This document shows, one piece after another, positions 14,999 to 24,864 of a stretch of DNA of 64,000 nt (position 1 is its first letter; the number at the start of each line of letters is the position of its first letter). The notes beneath the pieces are model-generated. The model was given only the letters and a program-made list of their open reading frames with translations. It was not told where the DNA came from and ran no database searches. The DNA is from Desulfobacteraceae bacterium (GTDB taxonomy: Bacteria; Desulfobacterota; Desulfobacteria; Desulfobacterales; SKZT01): assembly GCA_011389745.1 (NCBI GenBank), contig JAABTQ010000012.1, positions 1 to 64,000 on the forward strand, given 5' to 3'. Both the position numbers and the translations under genes were made by a program.

Positions 14999-15763
14999 CT
15001 ATACCGGAAGAACTGTGGTAACCCGGTTTCCTTTACCCTCTTGCCTGTCTGTGAATAATGTGCCTCCATGCAATTCCACCAGGTTTCTTGTCAGGCTTAA
15101 TTCCAGGCCGGAGTGAGGAGTATGATTTTTTTTACCCGCCTCAGCTTCTAAAGACTCTTCCAATATATTCCCATGATATTCGGCATCGATCCCGGTTCTA
15201 TTGTCTATAATTGAAATAACCACTAATTCACGATTTTCGATCATAAGTTTTTCAGCTATGACTCCCACCTGACCGCCATCCGGAGTCAAATTCAAGGCGT
15301 TTGAAAGCAGGTTGAACAAAATTTGTTTCATTTTTCTCTTATCCAGATTCATTTTCAGGTGACGCAGGTCGTCAGACATCGAAAAACGGATGTCTATATT
15401 GTGCTTAAAAGCTTTTTGCCGAATAAAATTCAAGCTGCCCCGGATAATATCACCGATGTTCACATGGCGAAGATCCAGATTATCATCGTCGTTATCCGGA
15501 CTGGTCAGATCCAGAATGTCGTTTATTAAAGCCAGGAGCTCCTGGCCGCTTTCATGAATATCTTTAACATAACGTTCCTGTTTTGCATTCAGAGGGCCGA
15601 AATATTTTTCCAGGAGAACCTGTGAAAAACCCAATATGGAGTTAAGAGGGTTTCGAAGCTCATGGCTCATATTGGCGAAAAAATTACTATTGATCAGGCT
15701 TGTCATCTCTATGGATTCTTTCATTTTACGTAAGTTATCCGAAGCCTTATTTTTTTCATCCAT
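14999..15763 (-). CDS. histidine kinase with degenerate ATP-binding boxes
   Basis: 254 residues from the ATG at 15763, chosen for its AGGAAAG ribosome site; a longer frame runs to 15874. A short coiled N terminus leads to a HisKA domain with an intact phospho-acceptor motif FFANMSHELRNPLNS. In the HATPase domain the N box is NLLSNAL, but the G1 box reads DNRTGID rather than DxGxG and the G2 box reads HSGLELS rather than GxGLGL. No membrane segment or sensor domain is seen. It may be a weak kinase, a phosphatase or a phosphotransfer partner. It is convergent with ftsK, with a 3-base gap. Confidence 0.85.
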   Translation of the reverse strand: MDEKNKASDNLRKMKESIEMTSLINSNFFANMSHELRNPLNSILGFSQVLLEKYFGPLNAKQERYVKDIHESGQELLALINDILDLTSPDNDDDNLDLRHVNIGDIIRGSLNFIRQKAFKHNIDIRFSMSDDLRHLKMNLDKRKMKQILFNLLSNALNLTPDGGQVGVIAEKLMIENRELVVISIIDNRTGIDAEYHGNILEESLEAEAGKKNHTPHSGLELSLTRNLVELHGGTLFTDRQEGKGNRVTTVLPV

Positions 15764-15958
15764 TTTTATCTTTCCTGTTCCGGAAACCTGTGAAAGTTTT
15801 TTCCCGATTAAAACTGAATCACAAATAGTATAAAAATAATCCGGCAGTATGATACAAATCGTATCAAATGGCAACGAATTGAGATTCTTGACTGTAAGTT
15901 TTGATTATAATATGGTTTAATCATTATTGGAAAATTTTCAACAATTTGGACCCTATTG

Positions 15959-16786
15959 ATGATGACCACTACATTTCACGTTAATATTGCCGGACGCAGA
16001 TTAAGAGTTCAAAGAATTTCGGTATCCTCTTCAGCTGATCAACCGGACAGCCCGACCCTGGTTTTTTTGCACGAAGGACTTGGATGTATCGAGCATTGGA
16101 AAGGTTTTCCCAAAATGCTGTGCAGGACCACGGGAATCAACGGTCTGGTTTATGACCGAAAAGGTTACGGAGGCTCAGATACATGCGATAAATGGCAAAA
16201 AGATTATTTGATTGAAGAAGCCAACGTAGACCTTCCCAGGCTGATAAAATCTTGCGGTATCCGAAATGTTATTTTGATAGGCCACAGTGACGGAGGCTCC
16301 ATTGCGCTTTTGGCGGCGGCTACACACAAGCATCTTGTAAAAGGAGTAATTACCGAGGCAGCACACATTTTTGTCGAAAACGAAACTGTCAACGGAATTC
16401 GCAAATTTATGGGACTCTATGATAATGATGATAAATTAAAAAAAAAGCTTTCACGTTATCACGGAGAAAATACTGATAAAGTGGTACGAAGATGGGCGGA
16501 TACCTGGTTGGCACCGGAATTTCGGGACTGGAATATGGAATCTTTTTTACCCTGGATTTCCTGTCCGCTTCTGGTCCTGCAAGGGGTAAACGATGAATAT
16601 GCCACGATCAGGCAAATCAAAGGAATTGTTGATCAGGTCAAGGGGCCTGTTTCATGGGAAATAATTTCCAAATGCGGCCATGTACCCCATTTTCAGGCGA
16701 CTGATCAGGTAGTGGTTCTGATGTCCTCTTTTATATTGTCCATTGTACAAAAAGAGAAAGCTAATCCATGTCAGTTGAAAAGTTAA
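15959..16786 (+). CDS. alpha/beta-fold hydrolase
   Basis: Predicted cytoplasmic serine hydrolase of about 275 residues. Visible elements are the oxyanion segment FLHEGLG, the nucleophile elbow GHSDGGS, an acid residue in GVNDEYA and the histidine in CGHVPHF, so the triad looks complete. The sequence resembles the proline iminopeptidase/carboxylesterase-like group, but the substrate cannot be told. The start is uncertain among a TTG and two ATGs (15956-15964). Its 3' end overlaps the REC-kinase gene by 19 bases, tying it to the signalling operon. Confidence 0.85.
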   Translation: MMTTTFHVNIAGRRLRVQRISVSSSADQPDSPTLVFLHEGLGCIEHWKGFPKMLCRTTGINGLVYDRKGYGGSDTCDKWQKDYLIEEANVDLPRLIKSCGIRNVILIGHSDGGSIALLAAATHKHLVKGVITEAAHIFVENETVNGIRKFMGLYDNDDKLKKKLSRYHGENTDKVVRRWADTWLAPEFRDWNMESFLPWISCPLLVLQGVNDEYATIRQIKGIVDQVKGPVSWEIISKCGHVPHFQATDQVVVLMSSFILSIVQKEKANPCQLKS

Positions 16787-17925
16787 AAATCCTTGTGGTA
16801 GATGATGATCTTTTTTTCAGAAAAATGCTCCCGAAAAAGCTTTCATCAAAAGGATTCATATTTGATACCGCTGAAAATGGGGTTGAAGCTCTGGAAAAAT
16901 TGCATGCGAATCCGGATGTCGAGCTGATCATTTCGGATATGGCAATGCCGGAGATGAATGGGCTGGAGTTGATCAAAAAAATCCGTAGCACCGGCAAAGA
17001 TGTTCCATTTATTTTCCTGACAGCCAGTGACCAGTTGAACACTGCCATCGAGGCCATGACATGCGGGGCTAGTGATTATCTTCTAAAAGATGAAAACATT
17101 TTAAGAACCCTATCGATATCTGTTGACAAGGTACTGGAAAAACATCAGCTGAAAAAAAGCAATCAAAAGCTTTTGCAAGATCTTGCCGCAAAAAACAAAG
17201 ACCTGGAAAAGTCCAATAAGCAACTGCTGAAATTAAACGAGCTTAAAAACAAATTTCTGGGTATGGCAGCCCATGATCTGAGGAGTCCTCTTGCTTCCAT
17301 TCGTGGTTTGAGTGAGTTTTTGCTGAGTGAAATCTTTGGTTACCTGACGGAAGAACAAAAAGAATATATCAACATTATTAACAAGACTTCTGATGAAATG
17401 CTTACTCTCGTCAACGACCTGCTGGATGTTTCGGTTATCGAAAGTGGAAACCTTGACATAAAGCCCTTAAAAACATCCCTGATCAGTCTTATAAAGGACA
17501 GAATAAAACTGTATCGCATGTCCGCGGAAAAAAAAGACACCAGGATAAATTTTATCCCGGAAGACATTCCGGAAATATTTTTTGATCCTTCAAAAATAGC
17601 TCAGGTTATTGACAATCTGGTCAGCAATTCCGTCAAATTTTCGCCACCTGGTTCTGCGATATACATACATGCGGATGTGGATAAGGCTATGGTCAAAGTG
17701 AGCATTCGTGATGAAGGTCCTGGTATTTCCGAAGAGGAACAATCCAGGCTTTTTGGAGAATTTCAGCGTTTAAGTGCCAGGCCTACGGCTGGTGAAAAGA
17801 GCACGGGTCTGGGGCTTGCAATTGTGAAAAAAATCATAGATGCTCATCATGGGATACTGGAAGTGAACAGCCGTTTAGGGGTGGGGTCGACATTTAGCTT
17901 CAAGTTACCGATCAGCAACGATTAA
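16768..17925 (+). CDS. response-regulator/histidine-kinase hybrid (REC-HisKA-HATPase)
   Basis: 385-residue cytoplasmic protein. The N-terminal receiver (about 7-125) has the acidic pocket VVDDD, the phospho-accepting aspartate in IISDMAMP, and the conserved Thr (FLTAS) and Lys (LLKDE). A coiled coil (about 130-165) links to HisKA with MAAHDLRSPL and a HATPase domain with all boxes: NLVSNSVKF, DEGPGI and GLGLAIVKK. It likely receives phosphate from another kinase and passes it on; the CheY-like gene 22 bases downstream is a natural target. The start overlaps the hydrolase gene. Confidence 0.92.
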   Translation: MSVEKLKILVVDDDLFFRKMLPKKLSSKGFIFDTAENGVEALEKLHANPDVELIISDMAMPEMNGLELIKKIRSTGKDVPFIFLTASDQLNTAIEAMTCGASDYLLKDENILRTLSISVDKVLEKHQLKKSNQKLLQDLAAKNKDLEKSNKQLLKLNELKNKFLGMAAHDLRSPLASIRGLSEFLLSEIFGYLTEEQKEYINIINKTSDEMLTLVNDLLDVSVIESGNLDIKPLKTSLISLIKDRIKLYRMSAEKKDTRINFIPEDIPEIFFDPSKIAQVIDNLVSNSVKFSPPGSAIYIHADVDKAMVKVSIRDEGPGISEEEQSRLFGEFQRLSARPTAGEKSTGLGLAIVKKIIDAHHGILEVNSRLGVGSTFSFKLPISND

Positions 17926-17947
17926 TGAAATCAATCCGGAGGTATCT

Positions 17948-18337
17948 ATGACACAAAAAAGAAAACCGAGGGTTTTGCTCGCAGATGATGAATTGCATAT
18001 CAGGGCGCTGATGAAAGCTGTTATAAAAAGCATTAATGGGGAGATCGTTGCAGAGGCCACAACCGGTCAGGACGCAGTCGATCTTTTCAATGAACACAAG
18101 CCTGATTTGATGCTGTTGGATATCAACATGCCGATCAAAACCGGGGAAGAGGCCCTGGAGGAGGTCATCAGGAAGTATCCCAATGCTCTTGTTATCATGT
18201 TGACATCCCTATCGGATGCCAAAAGTGTGGAAAAGTGCATGAAACTCGGTGCGGCTAATTTTATTCGTAAAGATACCCCCATTGATAAAATGAAAGATAT
18301 CATCAAACAGACCTGGCGTGAATTTCGATTGTCCTGA
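17948..18337 (+). CDS. stand-alone CheY-like response regulator
   Basis: 129 residues forming one receiver domain and no output domain. The acidic pair is in LLADDE, the phosphorylation aspartate in LMLLDINMP, the switch threonine in MLTSLS and the conserved lysine in IRKDTP. The start has GGAGG upstream and follows the hybrid kinase by 22 bases. It probably acts by protein contact; the degenerate GspE-like ATPase in the same operon is a candidate partner by position only. Confidence 0.92.
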   Translation: MTQKRKPRVLLADDELHIRALMKAVIKSINGEIVAEATTGQDAVDLFNEHKPDLMLLDINMPIKTGEEALEEVIRKYPNALVIMLTSLSDAKSVEKCMKLGAANFIRKDTPIDKMKDIIKQTWREFRLS

Positions 18338-18356
18338 AATTCTACGGAGAAATGTT

Positions 18357-18506
18357 ATGACTGAAAAATTCAACCTCAAACAAATGCTTTTGGAAATTCA
18401 GGAAGATGAAAAACTTGGTGATAATGAAAATATCGAACTTTCTCAGGACAGAATTAATCAGATCATGATGGAAAGACTTCAGAAGAGAAAGGCAAAAAAA
18501 GAATGA
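18357..18506 (+). CDS. small hypothetical protein, 49 residues
   Basis: Not recognised. A highly charged, probably helical polypeptide starting MTEKFNLKQ and ending in the lysine-rich RKAKKE. The start ATG at 18357 has CGGAGA eight bases upstream; a longer frame from 18318 overlaps the receiver gene and lacks a ribosome site. The stop overlaps the start of the next gene by four bases (ATGA), so it is translationally coupled to the GspE-like ATPase. That coupling and the good ribosome site are the reasons to accept it as a gene. Confidence 0.65.
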   Translation: MTEKFNLKQMLLEIQEDEKLGDNENIELSQDRINQIMMERLQKRKAKKE

Positions 18507-20224
18507 GCAATGTAACAGGCTTACCGGAAATTAGTAACCCAGAGTTTTTTAACATTCTGATTTCAAGGGAATTTTTAAACGAACACGAAGTTCAGGAATT
18601 GCGTAAAAAATTTCCGGAAAATGCCTTTGCCGCGCTGTTTTTTCTGATTAAACAACAGCCCTCCGCGCAGGGTCGGTTATGCAGGTTCTGGGCTGACTCT
18701 TTGGGTGTTGCTTATATCGAGCTTGAAAAGACCATTTTTCAGCAGAATGTTGTTGAAAAAATTCCAGAAGAAATTGCCCAAAAATATAAAGTCATCCCAA
18801 TATATCAATTGGGCGAAACCATTACCGTGGCCACATTTGATCCCACCAATCAAGAACTTGCAAAGCAACTGCAGGATGCCATCGGGGTGCTTGTCAGCCT
18901 TGTTTTTTCGCTTCCCGAAGAAATAGATGACGCAATCAGTAAAGCTTATCATTTCGCGGAAACTTTGAAAAAATTTATCGACAAAATTTCTTCCAGCACC
19001 CTGTTTCAAAAATATGATCTCCTGACAGCTGAAAAACTTTTTGAAGTTGCCGGAAATCAGGCCGTTGTTGAACTTCCAATCTGTATTATCCTATTTGCCG
19101 TAAAAGAAAAGGCTACCGATATTCACATTGAACCAGGGCGTGAGACGACCAGGATCCGATTTCGTATCGACGGTGTTTTAAAAAACCGGATGCAACTGGA
19201 ACTTTCATTACATTCTCGCCTTATTGACAGGCTGAAAACTTTGGCCAAAATCGAAGAGAAAGAAACGAACAAACCCCATCAGGGACGAATAATTTTTCCC
19301 TTGCCTGACCAGCGGGTAGAGCTGGATTTTTCGACCATACCGACCATGTCCGGCCAGAAAGCGACTTTAAAAGTTATTGCAAAAACAAGACTTGAAGAAG
19401 TTGAAAGTCTGGATCGGATTTTTCTCTCCAAAAAAAATTATGACCAAATCACAAAACTTATCGGAGTTCCTTATGGTCTGCTTCTGGTGGCCGGGGCTTA
19501 TGGTAGTCAAAAATCCGGCTTAATTTATTCAGCGCTAAAATATATGAACACTGATGAAATAAATATTACCACTGTGGAAAATACCCTCAAATATCGGCTT
19601 GACGGCCTCAACCAGATCCAGGTTGATTTTTCGAACGGTTTGGATCCGGTCTCCGCGATTCGGTGTTGTCTTTCACAGGATACCCAGGTTTTGGCAATTG
19701 ATGAAATAAGAAACAAGGATGAAGCTGTCGAGCTTTTTGAAGCAGCTCGGGCAGGGCACCTGGTTGTGTCGGGAATCAATGCCAATAATGTATTTCAGGC
19801 AATCCTCCGATTATTTCAAATGGGCCTTAATACTGACGATGTCTTACCGTTACTTCTTGGTATTATTGCTACCCGAAGCGCCAGAAAACTGTGCCCGCAA
19901 TGCAAAGAAAAATATCGCGCTTCAAAAGAAGAAATTAAGACCTATTTTGACACGGATGGCGAGTTCAAAATCAATCTGTATAAACCAAAAGGATGCCGGT
20001 TTTGTAATGATACCGGATACTCCGGCCGGATTGCTTTGCACGAGCTATTAATTTTAAACAATACGATTAAAAAACTTGTTTATTCAGACATCTCCCTGAT
20101 GTCGTTGATCACATCGGCTGAAAAAGAGAATTTCCAGAATTTGCGTTATGATGGAATGAAAAAAGTGCTTCGTGGTTTGACCACTTTTGATGAAATCAAC
20201 CGTGTGACCATGCCGCAATTATAG
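18503..20224 (+). CDS. degenerate GspE/PilB-type secretion ATPase homologue
   Basis: 573 residues. An N-terminal MshEN/GspE_N-like domain (about 30-165) precedes a domain collinear with type II secretion/type IV pilus ATPases. The nucleotide site is altered. Walker A reads GAYGSQKS where GxxGSGKT is usual, the Asp-box region reads VENTLKY, and the His-box reads SGINANN where STLHTND is usual. The Walker B-like segment reads AIDEIRN. The zinc-binding cysteines CPQC and CRFC are intact. No other pilus or secretion gene is nearby; its operon is regulatory. I infer a non-motor or weak ATPase with a signalling role, but this is unproven. Confidence 0.85.
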   Translation: MSNVTGLPEISNPEFFNILISREFLNEHEVQELRKKFPENAFAALFFLIKQQPSAQGRLCRFWADSLGVAYIELEKTIFQQNVVEKIPEEIAQKYKVIPIYQLGETITVATFDPTNQELAKQLQDAIGVLVSLVFSLPEEIDDAISKAYHFAETLKKFIDKISSSTLFQKYDLLTAEKLFEVAGNQAVVELPICIILFAVKEKATDIHIEPGRETTRIRFRIDGVLKNRMQLELSLHSRLIDRLKTLAKIEEKETNKPHQGRIIFPLPDQRVELDFSTIPTMSGQKATLKVIAKTRLEEVESLDRIFLSKKNYDQITKLIGVPYGLLLVAGAYGSQKSGLIYSALKYMNTDEINITTVENTLKYRLDGLNQIQVDFSNGLDPVSAIRCCLSQDTQVLAIDEIRNKDEAVELFEAARAGHLVVSGINANNVFQAILRLFQMGLNTDDVLPLLLGIIATRSARKLCPQCKEKYRASKEEIKTYFDTDGEFKINLYKPKGCRFCNDTGYSGRIALHELLILNNTIKKLVYSDISLMSLITSAEKENFQNLRYDGMKKVLRGLTTFDEINRVTMPQL

Positions 20225-20242: not shown

Positions 20243-20266
20243 CCCGCATATCATGCGGGTTTTATT
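20243..20266. terminator. intrinsic terminator between convergent genes
   Basis: CCCGCAT (20243-20249) pairs with ATGCGGG (20253-20259) around a three-base loop, followed by TTTTATT. It lies between the stops of the GspE-like gene and rtcB and best serves the + strand transcript. Confidence 0.75.
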
Positions 20267-22354: not shown

Positions 22355-23758
22355 TCAGGACCTGAAAGGATCGGCTTTGATGTCATAGCGCCTCATAATT
22401 TGCTGAAGTGCCTGACGTTCAAGCCCGCAAAGCTTTGCAGCATGGGTGACATTTCCATCGCAAATTTTCAGATAATGTCCTATATATTGGCCATTAAACC
22501 TTTTTAGGATTTCTTCTTTGGCTGTTTTATAAGGCTTTTCCTCAATGCCGATATTTGCTGCCGTGTCAGATCGGACTTCTTTTTTAATCCCCACATCCCG
22601 AGGTTTGATTTCATCTGTGGTGGAAAAAAGAATACCCTGAAGAATCACATTTTCCAACTCACGAATATTCCCTTCCCAGGTTCTTTTTAGAAAAATGTCC
22701 ATAAGTTCCGCGGAAATTTTTTTTATTGGTTTGTTAAGATCCTCACAGTGTTTTTCCAGCAAATGGTTTGCAATAATCGGTATATCTTCTTTTCTCCGGC
22801 GAAGAGGAGGCAACTCGATAGGCAACACATTAATCCGGTAATAAAAATCCTCTCTGAATTGACCGATCCTTATTTTTTCTTTGAGGTTCTGGTTGGTGGA
22901 AGATATGATTCGAACATCCACATGAATGGATTTTGTATCACCCAAAGGTTTAATTTCTTTTTCCTGAAGAACCCGCAGAAGTTTGGTCTGAATGGCAGGG
23001 GTGACATCACCGATTTCATCCAGAAAAATACTTCCCTGGTCGGCCTCTTGAAAAAGGCCGATTTTGTTGGTTGTGGCATGGGTAAAAGCCCCTTTTTTGT
23101 ACCCGAAAAGTTCACTTTCCAGGATATTTTCGGGAACTGTGGGACAATTGACCGCCACCCAGGGTTTATCCCTGCGGGAACTCAGGGCATGAATTGCTCG
23201 TGCGGTCAGATCTTTTCCCGTGCCTGATTCACCGGTAATTAAAACCGTGAGATCATTTTTGGCAACCATCCGGATTGTCTCGTAAACACGCTGCATGGCT
23301 GTGGACTTGCCTACCATGTCCTGAAATGTGGCATGCCCCCGGCAAGCTTTCTGGAGTCTTTGATTTTCCTTGAGCAAAGTGCTTCTTTCCAGAGCTTTTT
23401 CCATCCGAAGCACAAGTGCATCGTGATCAAAAGGCTTTGTGATAAAGTCGTATGCCCCGCTTTTCATCGCCTCAACAGCAGAGTCTATACTTCCGAAAGC
23501 CGTCATCATAATCACGGTTTGATCATAAGATTTTCTTTTGATAATTTCCAAAAGTTCAAGACCGTCCATGCCGGGCATTTTTATATCCATGAGCACAAGG
23601 TCAAAATGATTTTCATTATAAATTTTGAGAGCTTCTTCCGCAGAAGAAGCGGTAGTGACATGGCATTTCAGGTCCGGTTCCAGACTCCGTTTTAATAACA
23701 TGAGCATGTCTTTTTCATCATCTACGACCAATATGCTTCTGCTTATTATGTTCATCAC
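22355..23758 (-). CDS. sigma-54-dependent NtrC-family response regulator
   Basis: 467 residues: receiver (about 8-120, phospho-Asp in LVLMDIKMP), AAA+ domain (about 145-375) and a Fis-type helix-turn-helix (about 420-460, HAAKLCGLERQALQQ). Walker A is GESGTGKD and Walker B is SIFLDEIGD. The sigma-54 contact loop reads GAFTHA rather than GAFTGA. The kinase gene ends two bases upstream, forming one operon. The sigma-54 promoter at 25789 is the obvious candidate target. Ready to act on phosphorylation by the linked kinase. Confidence 0.95.
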   Translation of the reverse strand: MMNIISRSILVVDDEKDMLMLLKRSLEPDLKCHVTTASSAEEALKIYNENHFDLVLMDIKMPGMDGLELLEIIKRKSYDQTVIMMTAFGSIDSAVEAMKSGAYDFITKPFDHDALVLRMEKALERSTLLKENQRLQKACRGHATFQDMVGKSTAMQRVYETIRMVAKNDLTVLITGESGTGKDLTARAIHALSSRRDKPWVAVNCPTVPENILESELFGYKKGAFTHATTNKIGLFQEADQGSIFLDEIGDVTPAIQTKLLRVLQEKEIKPLGDTKSIHVDVRIISSTNQNLKEKIRIGQFREDFYYRINVLPIELPPLRRRKEDIPIIANHLLEKHCEDLNKPIKKISAELMDIFLKRTWEGNIRELENVILQGILFSTTDEIKPRDVGIKKEVRSDTAANIGIEEKPYKTAKEEILKRFNGQYIGHYLKICDGNVTHAAKLCGLERQALQQIMRRYDIKADPFRS

Positions 23759-23760
23759 AA

Positions 23761-24864
23761 TTAGGTATTGATTGGTAAAACTACTGTAAATGTAGTCTCT
23801 TGCCCGGGTTCGCTTTTCACAAAGATGTGTCCGCCATGGTTTTTAATGATGCCGTAACCGACTGAAAGTCCTAACCCGGTTCCTTCTCCTGTGGGTTTGG
23901 TTGTAAAAAAAGGGTCAAAAATGCACGATAAATTTTTCTGCTCAATGCCGTACCCCGTATCCCTGACTTCAATAATAACCTGTTTGTCATCAGAGCAATA
24001 CCGGGTTGAAATCGTTATGGTTCCATTTTGACCAACCGCATGCCTGGCATTCATGGTCAAATTCATGATCACCTGACGGATTTTTTTTTCATCCAGAAAC
24101 ATGGACGGAATACTTTGATCATAATCCCTGATAATCTGAATTTTTTCAAGTTTAGAATGTTGCTGAATAAAAGAGACCACATCTTCTATTACATCATTTA
24201 ACCTTACCACATCTTGAGATGGCTTGGAAGTTCGCGCAAAGTTCAGCAAATCTTCCACGATTGATTTGCAGGTGCGAACATGCTTTTCAATGGTTTTGAG
24301 ATCCTGGTATTTTTCGGATTCAGGATTTTCTCCCCTCATTAAAAGTTGTGTATACCCAAGAATAATACCCAATGGGTTATTGATCTCATGGGCAATTCCT
24401 GAAGAGAACTGCCCTATTGAAGCCAGTTTATCCGCCTGTGACATCTGATGTTCCATCATCTTTCGCTGGTCGATATCCCTGGCCAGGTTGTGTGCGGATT
24501 CGATAGCTTGTTTGTCCGATAAAATTTGTTCATATATTTTCCAGCTTCTTTCAAAATAAAGGGTAAAAGATCCGACAGCTATAAACATCAGGGTGTTTAT
24601 GGATCCGCTCAATGGACGAATAAATTCCCAAACTTTTTGATATTCAGCCATTAGCAGTAAATGTTTTAACAAATGGCCTGCCGAACGGGAAATGGCAAAT
24701 CCCGCAATGGCAAAACAAACCCAATAGAGATAAATCCATATAACATTGCTGGAATCCCGTGTTCTAAGGATGGCCACCTGGTGAATGCATGCAAAGGCCA
24801 GAAAAATCATTGATATGGAGCCGATAACATCAACAATGACAATAGGTGTGCCTGATATAATCAT
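23761..24864 (-). CDS. membrane-bound sensor histidine kinase
   Basis: 367 residues. The N-terminal ~130 residues hold about four hydrophobic segments with little periplasmic domain, so sensing may be in or near the membrane, or through the partner protein encoded just upstream. The cytoplasmic part has HisKA with SSGIAHEINNPLG and a HATPase with MNLTMNARHAV, DTGYGI, FTTKPTGEGTGLGLS. Its start overlaps the stop of the upstream membrane-protein gene by four bases, and the regulator gene follows by two bases, so the three form a tightly coupled sensing operon. Confidence 0.93.
   Translation of the reverse strand: MIISGTPIVIVDVIGSISMIFLAFACIHQVAILRTRDSSNVIWIYLYWVCFAIAGFAISRSAGHLLKHLLLMAEYQKVWEFIRPLSGSINTLMFIAVGSFTLYFERSWKIYEQILSDKQAIESAHNLARDIDQRKMMEHQMSQADKLASIGQFSSGIAHEINNPLGIILGYTQLLMRGENPESEKYQDLKTIEKHVRTCKSIVEDLLNFARTSKPSQDVVRLNDVIEDVVSFIQQHSKLEKIQIIRDYDQSIPSMFLDEKKIRQVIMNLTMNARHAVGQNGTITISTRYCSDDKQVIIEVRDTGYGIEQKNLSCIFDPFFTTKPTGEGTGLGLSVGYGIIKNHGGHIFVKSEPGQETTFTVVLPINT

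Follow-up and report, generated by a model that had tools for sequence, protein, structure and literature searches.

The 64,000-nucleotide stretch of Desulfobacteraceae bacterium DNA analysed here (the window; contig JAABTQ010000012.1, positions 1 to 64,000) contains a four-gene operon that is a member of a conserved cassette, composed of a histidine kinase, a CheY-like receiver, an adaptor of about 50 amino acids and a protein of the PilB family of pilus ATPases. On balance, we favour a signalling route in which the kinase acts through phosphorylated CheY (CheY~P) and the adaptor, 49 residues long in the window, on the N-domain of the PilB-family protein and thereby on type IV pili; the PilB-family protein of the window is probably a regulatory pseudo-motor. 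The original prediction, made from the sequence, had described four genes coupled by short gaps or overlaps, and coordinates and Pfam assignments placed all of them as described, with gaps of 22 nt between the kinase and CheY-like genes and of 19 nt between the CheY-like and 49-mer genes, and an overlap of 4 nt between the 49-mer and ATPase genes.

A search with the ATPase in 146 genomes of the order recovered full-length relatives at 31–42% identity, above the background of ordinary PilB proteins. Among the first 15 wider loci, 13 had a CheY homologue upstream, and in 12 of these 13 a short gene lay between CheY and the ATPase, encoding an N-terminal box (N-box, KYDLxxMLxEIxxDE) and a C-terminal box (C-box, LSQDxIxxML). 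With an E-value limit of 0.01, the first 49-mer profile matched in 45 of 389 genomes, and 30 further loci were then examined; three matches (G298, G081 and G331, E 0.0066–0.0094) were left out and a fourth (L121, E 0.0019) was dropped as a false match with neither CheY nor ATPase. The enlarged profile (E up to 0.001) matched in 41 of the 389 genomes of the class, each of them from the order of the window, giving a set of 42 loci from 41 genomes. A CheY homologue lay just upstream of the 49-mer in all 42 loci, an ATPase just downstream and on the same strand in 41, and a kinase homologue scoring above 200 bits was present in 28, the window included. Intergenic gaps were mostly short or overlapping, four of them exceeding 100 nt. 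The arrangement of CheY, 49-mer and ATPase, which the original prediction had seen in one operon and proposed to look for in others, was found again in 41 of 42 loci and is therefore not due to chance. The exception (L118) has CheY and the 49-mer without an adjacent ATPase; its 49-mer precedes a frame of 1089 aa that has a kinase match, and a cassette-type ATPase (L060) is located on a different contig of the same genome (G026). The distribution is patchy, since the two other genomes of the window's family had only homologues at 31–36% identity and neither had a 49-mer match. A 224-aa frame around a 49-mer (L079/L097) turned out to be an upstream open frame and not a fusion, and a single-sequence contig scan returned four relatives at 28–35% identity, all with ordinary motifs, L014 and L015 being assigned to the ordinary rows of the tree described below.

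A genuine fusion emerged from a phylum-wide search with the 49-mer profile, which matched in 5 of 395 genomes; two were already known and the three new ones all belonged to one family (f155; loci L139, L140 and L141), in which the micro module forms the N-terminus of a longer PilT-type ATPase. Against the PilT-family model TIGR01420 (cut-off 319.1), the fusion proteins of L139, L140 and L141 scored 313.9, 324.6 and 314.2 bits, respectively, and, of the two examined for an MshEN domain, L140 had it and L141 did not. The C-box of the fusion protein is VSQNEIKTML in L139 and ISQEEIKMLL in L140; L141 no longer has one. In two of the three loci the fusion adjoins CheY and a cassette ATPase. The gene order is fusion, ODP-family protein, HisKA/HATPase kinase, CheY and cassette-type ATPase in L139; the genes annotated in L140 are those for the fusion, ODP, CheY and cassette ATPase. 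This fusion ties the micro module to pilus-type motor ATPases.

The window ATPase contains the T2SSE core (PF00437, 266.6 bits) and the MshEN-type N-domain (PF05157, 54.5 bits), and scored below the cut-offs of the PilB equivalog TIGR02538 (353.3 vs 675.65) and of the GspE model TIGR02533 (335.7 vs 630.25). Even the 827-aa PilB-like protein of this genome falls below the TIGR02538 cut-off (502.5), which is therefore strict. The Walker A sequence GAYGSQKS, confirmed as first read, departs from the consensus GxxxxGK[ST] by a Gln in place of the Gly before Lys; moreover, the ASP box is ENTLK for EDPxE, Walker B is DEIRN for GEIRD and the His box is INAN for LHTN. The claim that the His-box histidine is missing proved right for the second His and wrong for the first (GH), which is retained together with the Walker A Lys, the catalytic Glu (DEIRN) and the ASP-box Glu (VENTLKY), the latter (E359) being invariant across 41 aligned cassette ATPases. 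In Geobacter PilB, as reported, the ASP-box Glu holds magnesium, a Glu that follows Walker B is the catalytic residue, and the second histidine of the His box contacts the gamma-phosphate (PMC5424180). The ATP site of the window protein thus appears damaged rather than erased, and its activity has presumably been lost. An AlphaFold2 (AF2) model built from an alignment of 41 sequences (predicted local distance difference test, pLDDT, 86.4; predicted template modelling score, pTM, 0.56) matched solved PilB, GspE and PilF structures, the nine best rows having Z scores of 34.3–35.8 and root-mean-square deviations (rmsd) of 27.2 for the first, which covers two domains, and 4.4–5.7 for the others. 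Its N-terminal part matched the N-domain of MshE (5htl_B, Z 16.0, rmsd 2.9, 135 aligned) and that of PilB in its complex with PilZ (7lkm_A, Z 14.1; 7lko_A, Z 13.6).

In a tree of 59 rows, 45 cassette ATPases were split from 14 sampled ordinary PilB/GspE proteins by a branch with 100/100 support, and the window ATPase was sister to 24 proteins of one family (f59; support 100/99). L093, broken by a contig end, was excluded from this tree, and L061 was discarded as a cassette candidate as it grouped with ordinary PilB. All four ATP-site motifs were intact in 13 of the 45 cassette ATPases, compared with 14 of 14 ordinary proteins; 31 were non-canonical and one was unresolved (L059, His box masked by Ns). 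Motif loss requires at least four changes on the tree when L059 is counted as changed. In f59, none of the 24 proteins had a full ASP box, Walker B GExR or the second His, and the Walker A pattern was present in 8. Mean pairwise identity per column in f59 was 0.67 (residues 1–66), 0.70 (67–153), 0.43 (RecA core, 318–455) and 0.48 (456–573), while the same four regions gave 0.37, 0.45, 0.73 and 0.53 in the 13 canonical cassette ATPases. The ratio of nonsynonymous to synonymous substitution rates (dN/dS) in seven f59 pairs, which were drawn from 8 sequences and are non-independent, was 0.125–0.183 for the whole protein, 0.046–0.092 for the N-domain, 0.135–0.303 for the RecA part and 0.128–0.288 for the C-terminal part; two canonical pairs gave 0.064–0.075, 0.083–0.124, 0.045 and 0.097–0.098, respectively. 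Given this regional conservation and these ratios, we judge that the degenerate ATPases are maintained by selection and that the N-domain is their most constrained part, a statement that refers to the f59 pairs and not to the window protein. The earlier idea that a pilus ATPase fold has been recruited for signalling held up in that the protein is tied to a two-component system, has no pilus operon beside it and belongs to a lineage in which catalysis is seemingly less important; its other half, a dominant partner for a motor elsewhere, stays conjectural. The conservation of the cassette, the relatives with intact motifs and the 49-mer as a family with a FliM-like motif, elsewhere fused to a PilT-type ATPase, go beyond that prediction.

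These data also bear on an unlikely alternative, namely that the protein is a dedicated pilus extension motor, switched by CheY, with an unusual but working ATP site whose motif changes are tolerated variation. The residues retained in the window protein (Walker A Lys, catalytic Glu, ASP-box Glu, first His), the 13 of 45 cassette homologues with all motifs and the complete modelled fold speak for such a motor, whereas the joint loss of the full ASP box, of Walker B GExR and of the second His in 24 of 24 sister-clade proteins, and the position of the RecA core among the least conserved parts in f59, speak for a regulatory pseudo-motor.

We also scored the published MshEN motif for cyclic di-GMP (c-di-GMP), two copies of (R/K/L)LGxx(LVI)(LVI)xxG(LVI)(LVI)xxxxLxxxxLxxQ (PMC11731258). 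The window ATPase was rejected as a c-di-GMP receptor of this type, the motif being missing with a best score of 4 of 11 key positions, and all 45 cassette ATPases scored 6 or less within their first 120 residues; ordinary PilB/GspE proteins scored 5 to 9, with 6 of 14 reaching 7 or more. The PilB of Xanthomonas citri is likewise reported to have no c-di-GMP motif, and PilZ binds at that domain (PMC8389850). The missing motif and this precedent make protein input at the N-domain of cassette ATPases plausible by analogy.

In 43 CheY homologues D14, E15, D58, S87 and K108 were invariant and T86 was conserved in 98%, the phosphorylation site being preserved. The C-box pattern [LIMV][SP]Q..[IV]..[LMI][LMIF], which was defined after the family had been seen, was found in 35 of 42 micros vs 0.00017 per shuffled protein; the form with Ser only was present in 22 of 42, including the window's LSQDRINQIM, and a match to the C-box core arose in 25 of 200000 shuffled versions of the window micro. 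In FliM, the EIDALL helix is reported to bind the alpha4/alpha5 groove of CheY (PMC9126983), and FliM in the 12 FliM-bearing cassette genomes starts with MSEILSQDEVDSLL, MSEILTQEEVDSLL, MERILNQEEIDELL and similar sequences. A first FliM N-terminal profile was made from 6 of the 12 FliM loci chosen by the LSQ pattern, and favours likeness because its members were so picked; when the comparison was repeated with all 12 and no pattern, hhalign aligned the C-box with the FliM N-termini at P 0.0019, and none of 200 column-shuffled controls scored as high. FliM homology beyond the short motif was not supported by PDB and Pfam profile searches, and the window 49-mer matched no Pfam family, including the FliM domain PF02154. 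At the sequence level there is thus modest support for a FliM-N-like CheY-docking motif in the 49-mer. When the L118 read-through (CheY, stop, micro) was modelled with AF2, pLDDT was ~80 for the C-box helix, ~60 for the N-box and ~46 for the linker, and the model is compatible with docking only. A Foldseek search with the CheY-micro chain gave mostly receiver-type structures among the top 50 matches and was uninformative on docking; two mixed alignments (A5 and A6) had misplaced micro-only rows and were excluded from folding.

As for the machine addressed, PilM homology was detected in 44 of 45 cassette genomes (full length in 38, some of the genomes being incomplete), FliM in 12 of 45 and, in the window's genome, not at all. 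Away from the operon, this genome has a PilM-PilN-PilO-PilP-PilQ-like run (PilM and PilQ assigned by family models, N, O and P by position), two PilT-family genes and one PilB-like gene. The 827-aa PilB-like ATPase is possibly its main extension motor; this protein has a long N-terminal extension, and its gene adjoins one for a Ras-like small GTPase (C77, L156:832-4054). No pilus or secretion genes were recognised beside the window operon, in agreement with the original prediction, and PilM/N/O/P/Q or GspF homologues (E up to 1e-8) were found in 0 of 42 loci over stretches of 4.6–19.5 kb. A pilus locus beside the cassette in relatives had been named as an observation that would tell against a signalling role; a weak instance was seen in one of 42 loci (L099 in G246, minus strand, 2-2141), where a gene for a DUF6812 protein and two genes for PilT-like ATPases come after the cassette. 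The frequencies of PilM and FliM, the genome's own pil genes and L099 make type IV pili the likely target, as far as gene content can indicate.

In the mechanism we propose, the kinase would phosphorylate the CheY-like protein, and CheY~P would dock on the C-terminal C-box helix of the adaptor (LSQDxIxxMM), much as it does on the FliM N-terminal peptide. The adaptor would be bound to the ND0/ND1 (MshEN-like) N-domain of the PilB-family protein, a contact supported by its fusion to another pilus-type ATPase, and protein input may replace nucleotide input there, since the N-domain has no c-di-GMP motif. The route would end in control of type IV pilus motors whose genes lie at other sites of the genome. 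The PilB-family protein of some lineages retains all motor motifs; that of the window would be a weakened or inactive motor and most likely a regulatory subunit, which might for instance work within PilB/PilT assemblies or oppose them. A bolder version, which we put forward as doubtful, is that a pilus motor family has repeatedly been made into a catalytically dead, CheY-gated regulatory subunit, a PilB pseudo-ATPase to whose N-terminal domain a FliM-like microprotein recruits CheY~P and which joins or caps the real pilus motors; if true, it would give pili a 'switch' like the flagellar one, in bacteria that mostly seem to have no flagella.

Several observations weigh against the proposed route. 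The window ATPase may still bind or hydrolyse ATP, because the Walker A Lys, the catalytic Glu, the ASP-box Glu and one His are kept. Loss of the c-di-GMP motif is not special to the cassette, as 8 of 14 ordinary homologues also scored 6 or less of 11. The hhalign probability was low both with all 12 FliM N-termini (14.5) and with the 6 pattern-picked ones (22.5; P 9e-4, equalled by 1 of 200 shuffled controls), the acidic-I-acidic signature [ED]-I-[DE] (EID of FliM) occurred in 0 of 42 micros, a search of PDB sequences with the 49-mer profile up to E 10 did not find FliM, and no interface was seen in the AF2 output for the L118 CheY-micro pair. Moreover, CheY and ATPase are 4 nt apart in L058 and the micro gene is missing, and in L141, which has the fusion and an ATPase, no CheY was found within 14 kb. 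Regarding the target, the pilus genes sought were seen in none of the 41 loci other than L099, and the window's genome encodes a GspE above cut-off in an operon resembling that of a type II secretion system (T2SS), a possible target.

Two further explanations place the output elsewhere. A PilB-like signalling protein with a non-extension output, such as control of exopolysaccharide (EPS) as in Myxococcus, is improbable: an M. xanthus PilB deficient in ATP hydrolysis is reported to support EPS production still (PMC5544727) and several cassette ATPases have lost catalysis motifs yet retain the family domains, but no EPS genes were recognised among 20 annotated neighbour proteins from 8 loci, and the fusion links the 49-mer to a PilT-type motor. 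The T2SS as target instead of type IV pili is very improbable, despite the genome's own GspE and the close relationship of GspE and PilB, given the fusion of the micro module with a PilT-type ATPase in f155 and the PilT-like genes that adjoin the cassette in L099. A decaying paralogue, with the ATPase on its way to a pseudogene and the operon without present function, would fit the altered motifs, the patchy distribution and family relatives at only 31–36% identity, but is hardly credible and already disfavoured by the open frames, a dN/dS well below 1 in seven degenerate pairs, the N-domain as best conserved part and retention in 24 genomes of one family, the selection figures coming from f59 and not from the window.

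CheY-type control of PilB and signalling by ATPase-deficient PilB are already known, and the cassette differs from each described case. It shares with PilB, MshE and GspE the T2SSE and MshEN domains, the tetra-Cys motif and the fold; it differs in the changes that the window ATPase shows in all four ATP-site motifs (Walker A, ASP box, Walker B, His box), in the missing c-di-GMP motif, and in its gene neighbours, which encode a histidine kinase, CheY and a microprotein and are not pilus genes. EmvR of Xanthomonas oryzae, likewise a CheY-like protein acting on a PilB-family ATPase, is a response regulator with a single domain; it binds PilB, whose ATPase it represses. The passages describing it present EmvR as an orphan, mention no adaptor microprotein and concern an active PilB (PMC11973254). 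PixE of Synechocystis is a CheY-like regulator reported to interact with the pilus motor ATPase PilB1 (PMC7690835), but it has a PATAN domain, whereas the window CheY is a bare receiver that a separate 49-mer may couple to the ATPase. In PilB-PilZ-FimX of X. citri a small protein also sits on a PilB ND0-ND1 without c-di-GMP motif (PMC8389850), but PilZ and FimX have other folds and, as that system is described, phosphorylated CheY is not involved. CheF, the adaptor that brings CheY~P to the archaellum in archaea, and the FliM N-terminus (FliM-N) have in common with the cassette that an adaptor or short docking helix brings CheY~P to a motor (PMC9126983); the motor is another one, the micro C-box (LSQ-x-x-I) has no FliM EID, and CheF is reported to use another face of CheY. 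The Myxococcus case shows that PilB can signal even as a variant that has no ATPase activity (PMC5544727), but that protein is the PilB of the pilus machine, and the cassette protein is a separate paralogue accompanied by a two-component system of its own. Pairs of ATPases, PilB/TfpB and PilT/PilU among them, have been reviewed (PMC11656802).

Among the matches listed in open-licence PMC literature, we found no description of a CheY-49-mer-ATPase cassette and no adaptor-based switch for bacterial pili. The path from CheY-like signals to pilus motors is under active debate, with direct binding to PilB (EmvR, PixE) and archaellar CheF as known answers. The cassette is a small testable system (receiver of 129 aa, adaptor of 49 aa, motor homologue) in which ATP sites range naturally from intact to broken and an adaptor fused to a motor also occurs. 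Should the pseudo-motor reading be true, a pilus ATPase would have been reused for regulation, in a manner comparable to pseudokinases.

Table 1 Features of the operon and its 3' flank in the window.
Feature	Position	Strand	Basis
REC-HisKA-HATPase_c histidine kinase, 385 aa	16768..17925	+	Pfam PF00072, PF00512, PF02518
CheY-like single-domain response regulator, 129 aa	17948..18337	+	PF00072; alignment A4
49-aa microprotein, N-box KFNLKQMLLEIQEDE and FliM-N-like C-box LSQDRINQIM	18357..18506	+	42-member family A3, motif statistics
PilB/GspE-family protein, 573 aa, altered ATP-site motifs and tetra-Cys motif	18503..20224	+	PF00437, PF05157
ATPase N-terminal domain coding region, residues 12-157, putative docking site	18536..18973	+	Fold match, conservation
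Walker A region GAYGSQKS, residues 331-338	19493..19516	+	Sequence, alignments
Terminator-like hairpin 3' of ATPase gene	20243..20259	+	Pattern match only

The hairpin downstream of the ATPase gene is suggestive only, because the scanned region contained 9 such hairpins vs a shuffle mean of 4.4. At the other end of the operon, the start of the kinase gene shares 19 nt with the alpha/beta hydrolase gene upstream of it, and this hydrolase was not found in any other of the 49 loci scanned. Divergent from the hydrolase gene is a gene for a HisKA/HATPase kinase without a receiver match (14999-15874, minus strand). Convergent with the operon are adjoining genes for an RtcB RNA ligase and an archease (PF01139, PF01951; 20282-22242, minus strand), and a second two-component pair, a sigma-54 activator response regulator and a histidine kinase, is encoded at 22355-24864 (minus strand). 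Finally, ODP-family proteins were encoded in 6 of the 49 scanned loci (L054, L049, L107, L114, L139 and L140), all with a canonical ATPase, and PF19583 (ODP) was identified in L054, L139 and L140; as ODP is reported to be an oxygen sensor in Treponema chemotaxis (PMC7666581), its occurrence near cassettes represents a possible oxygen input.

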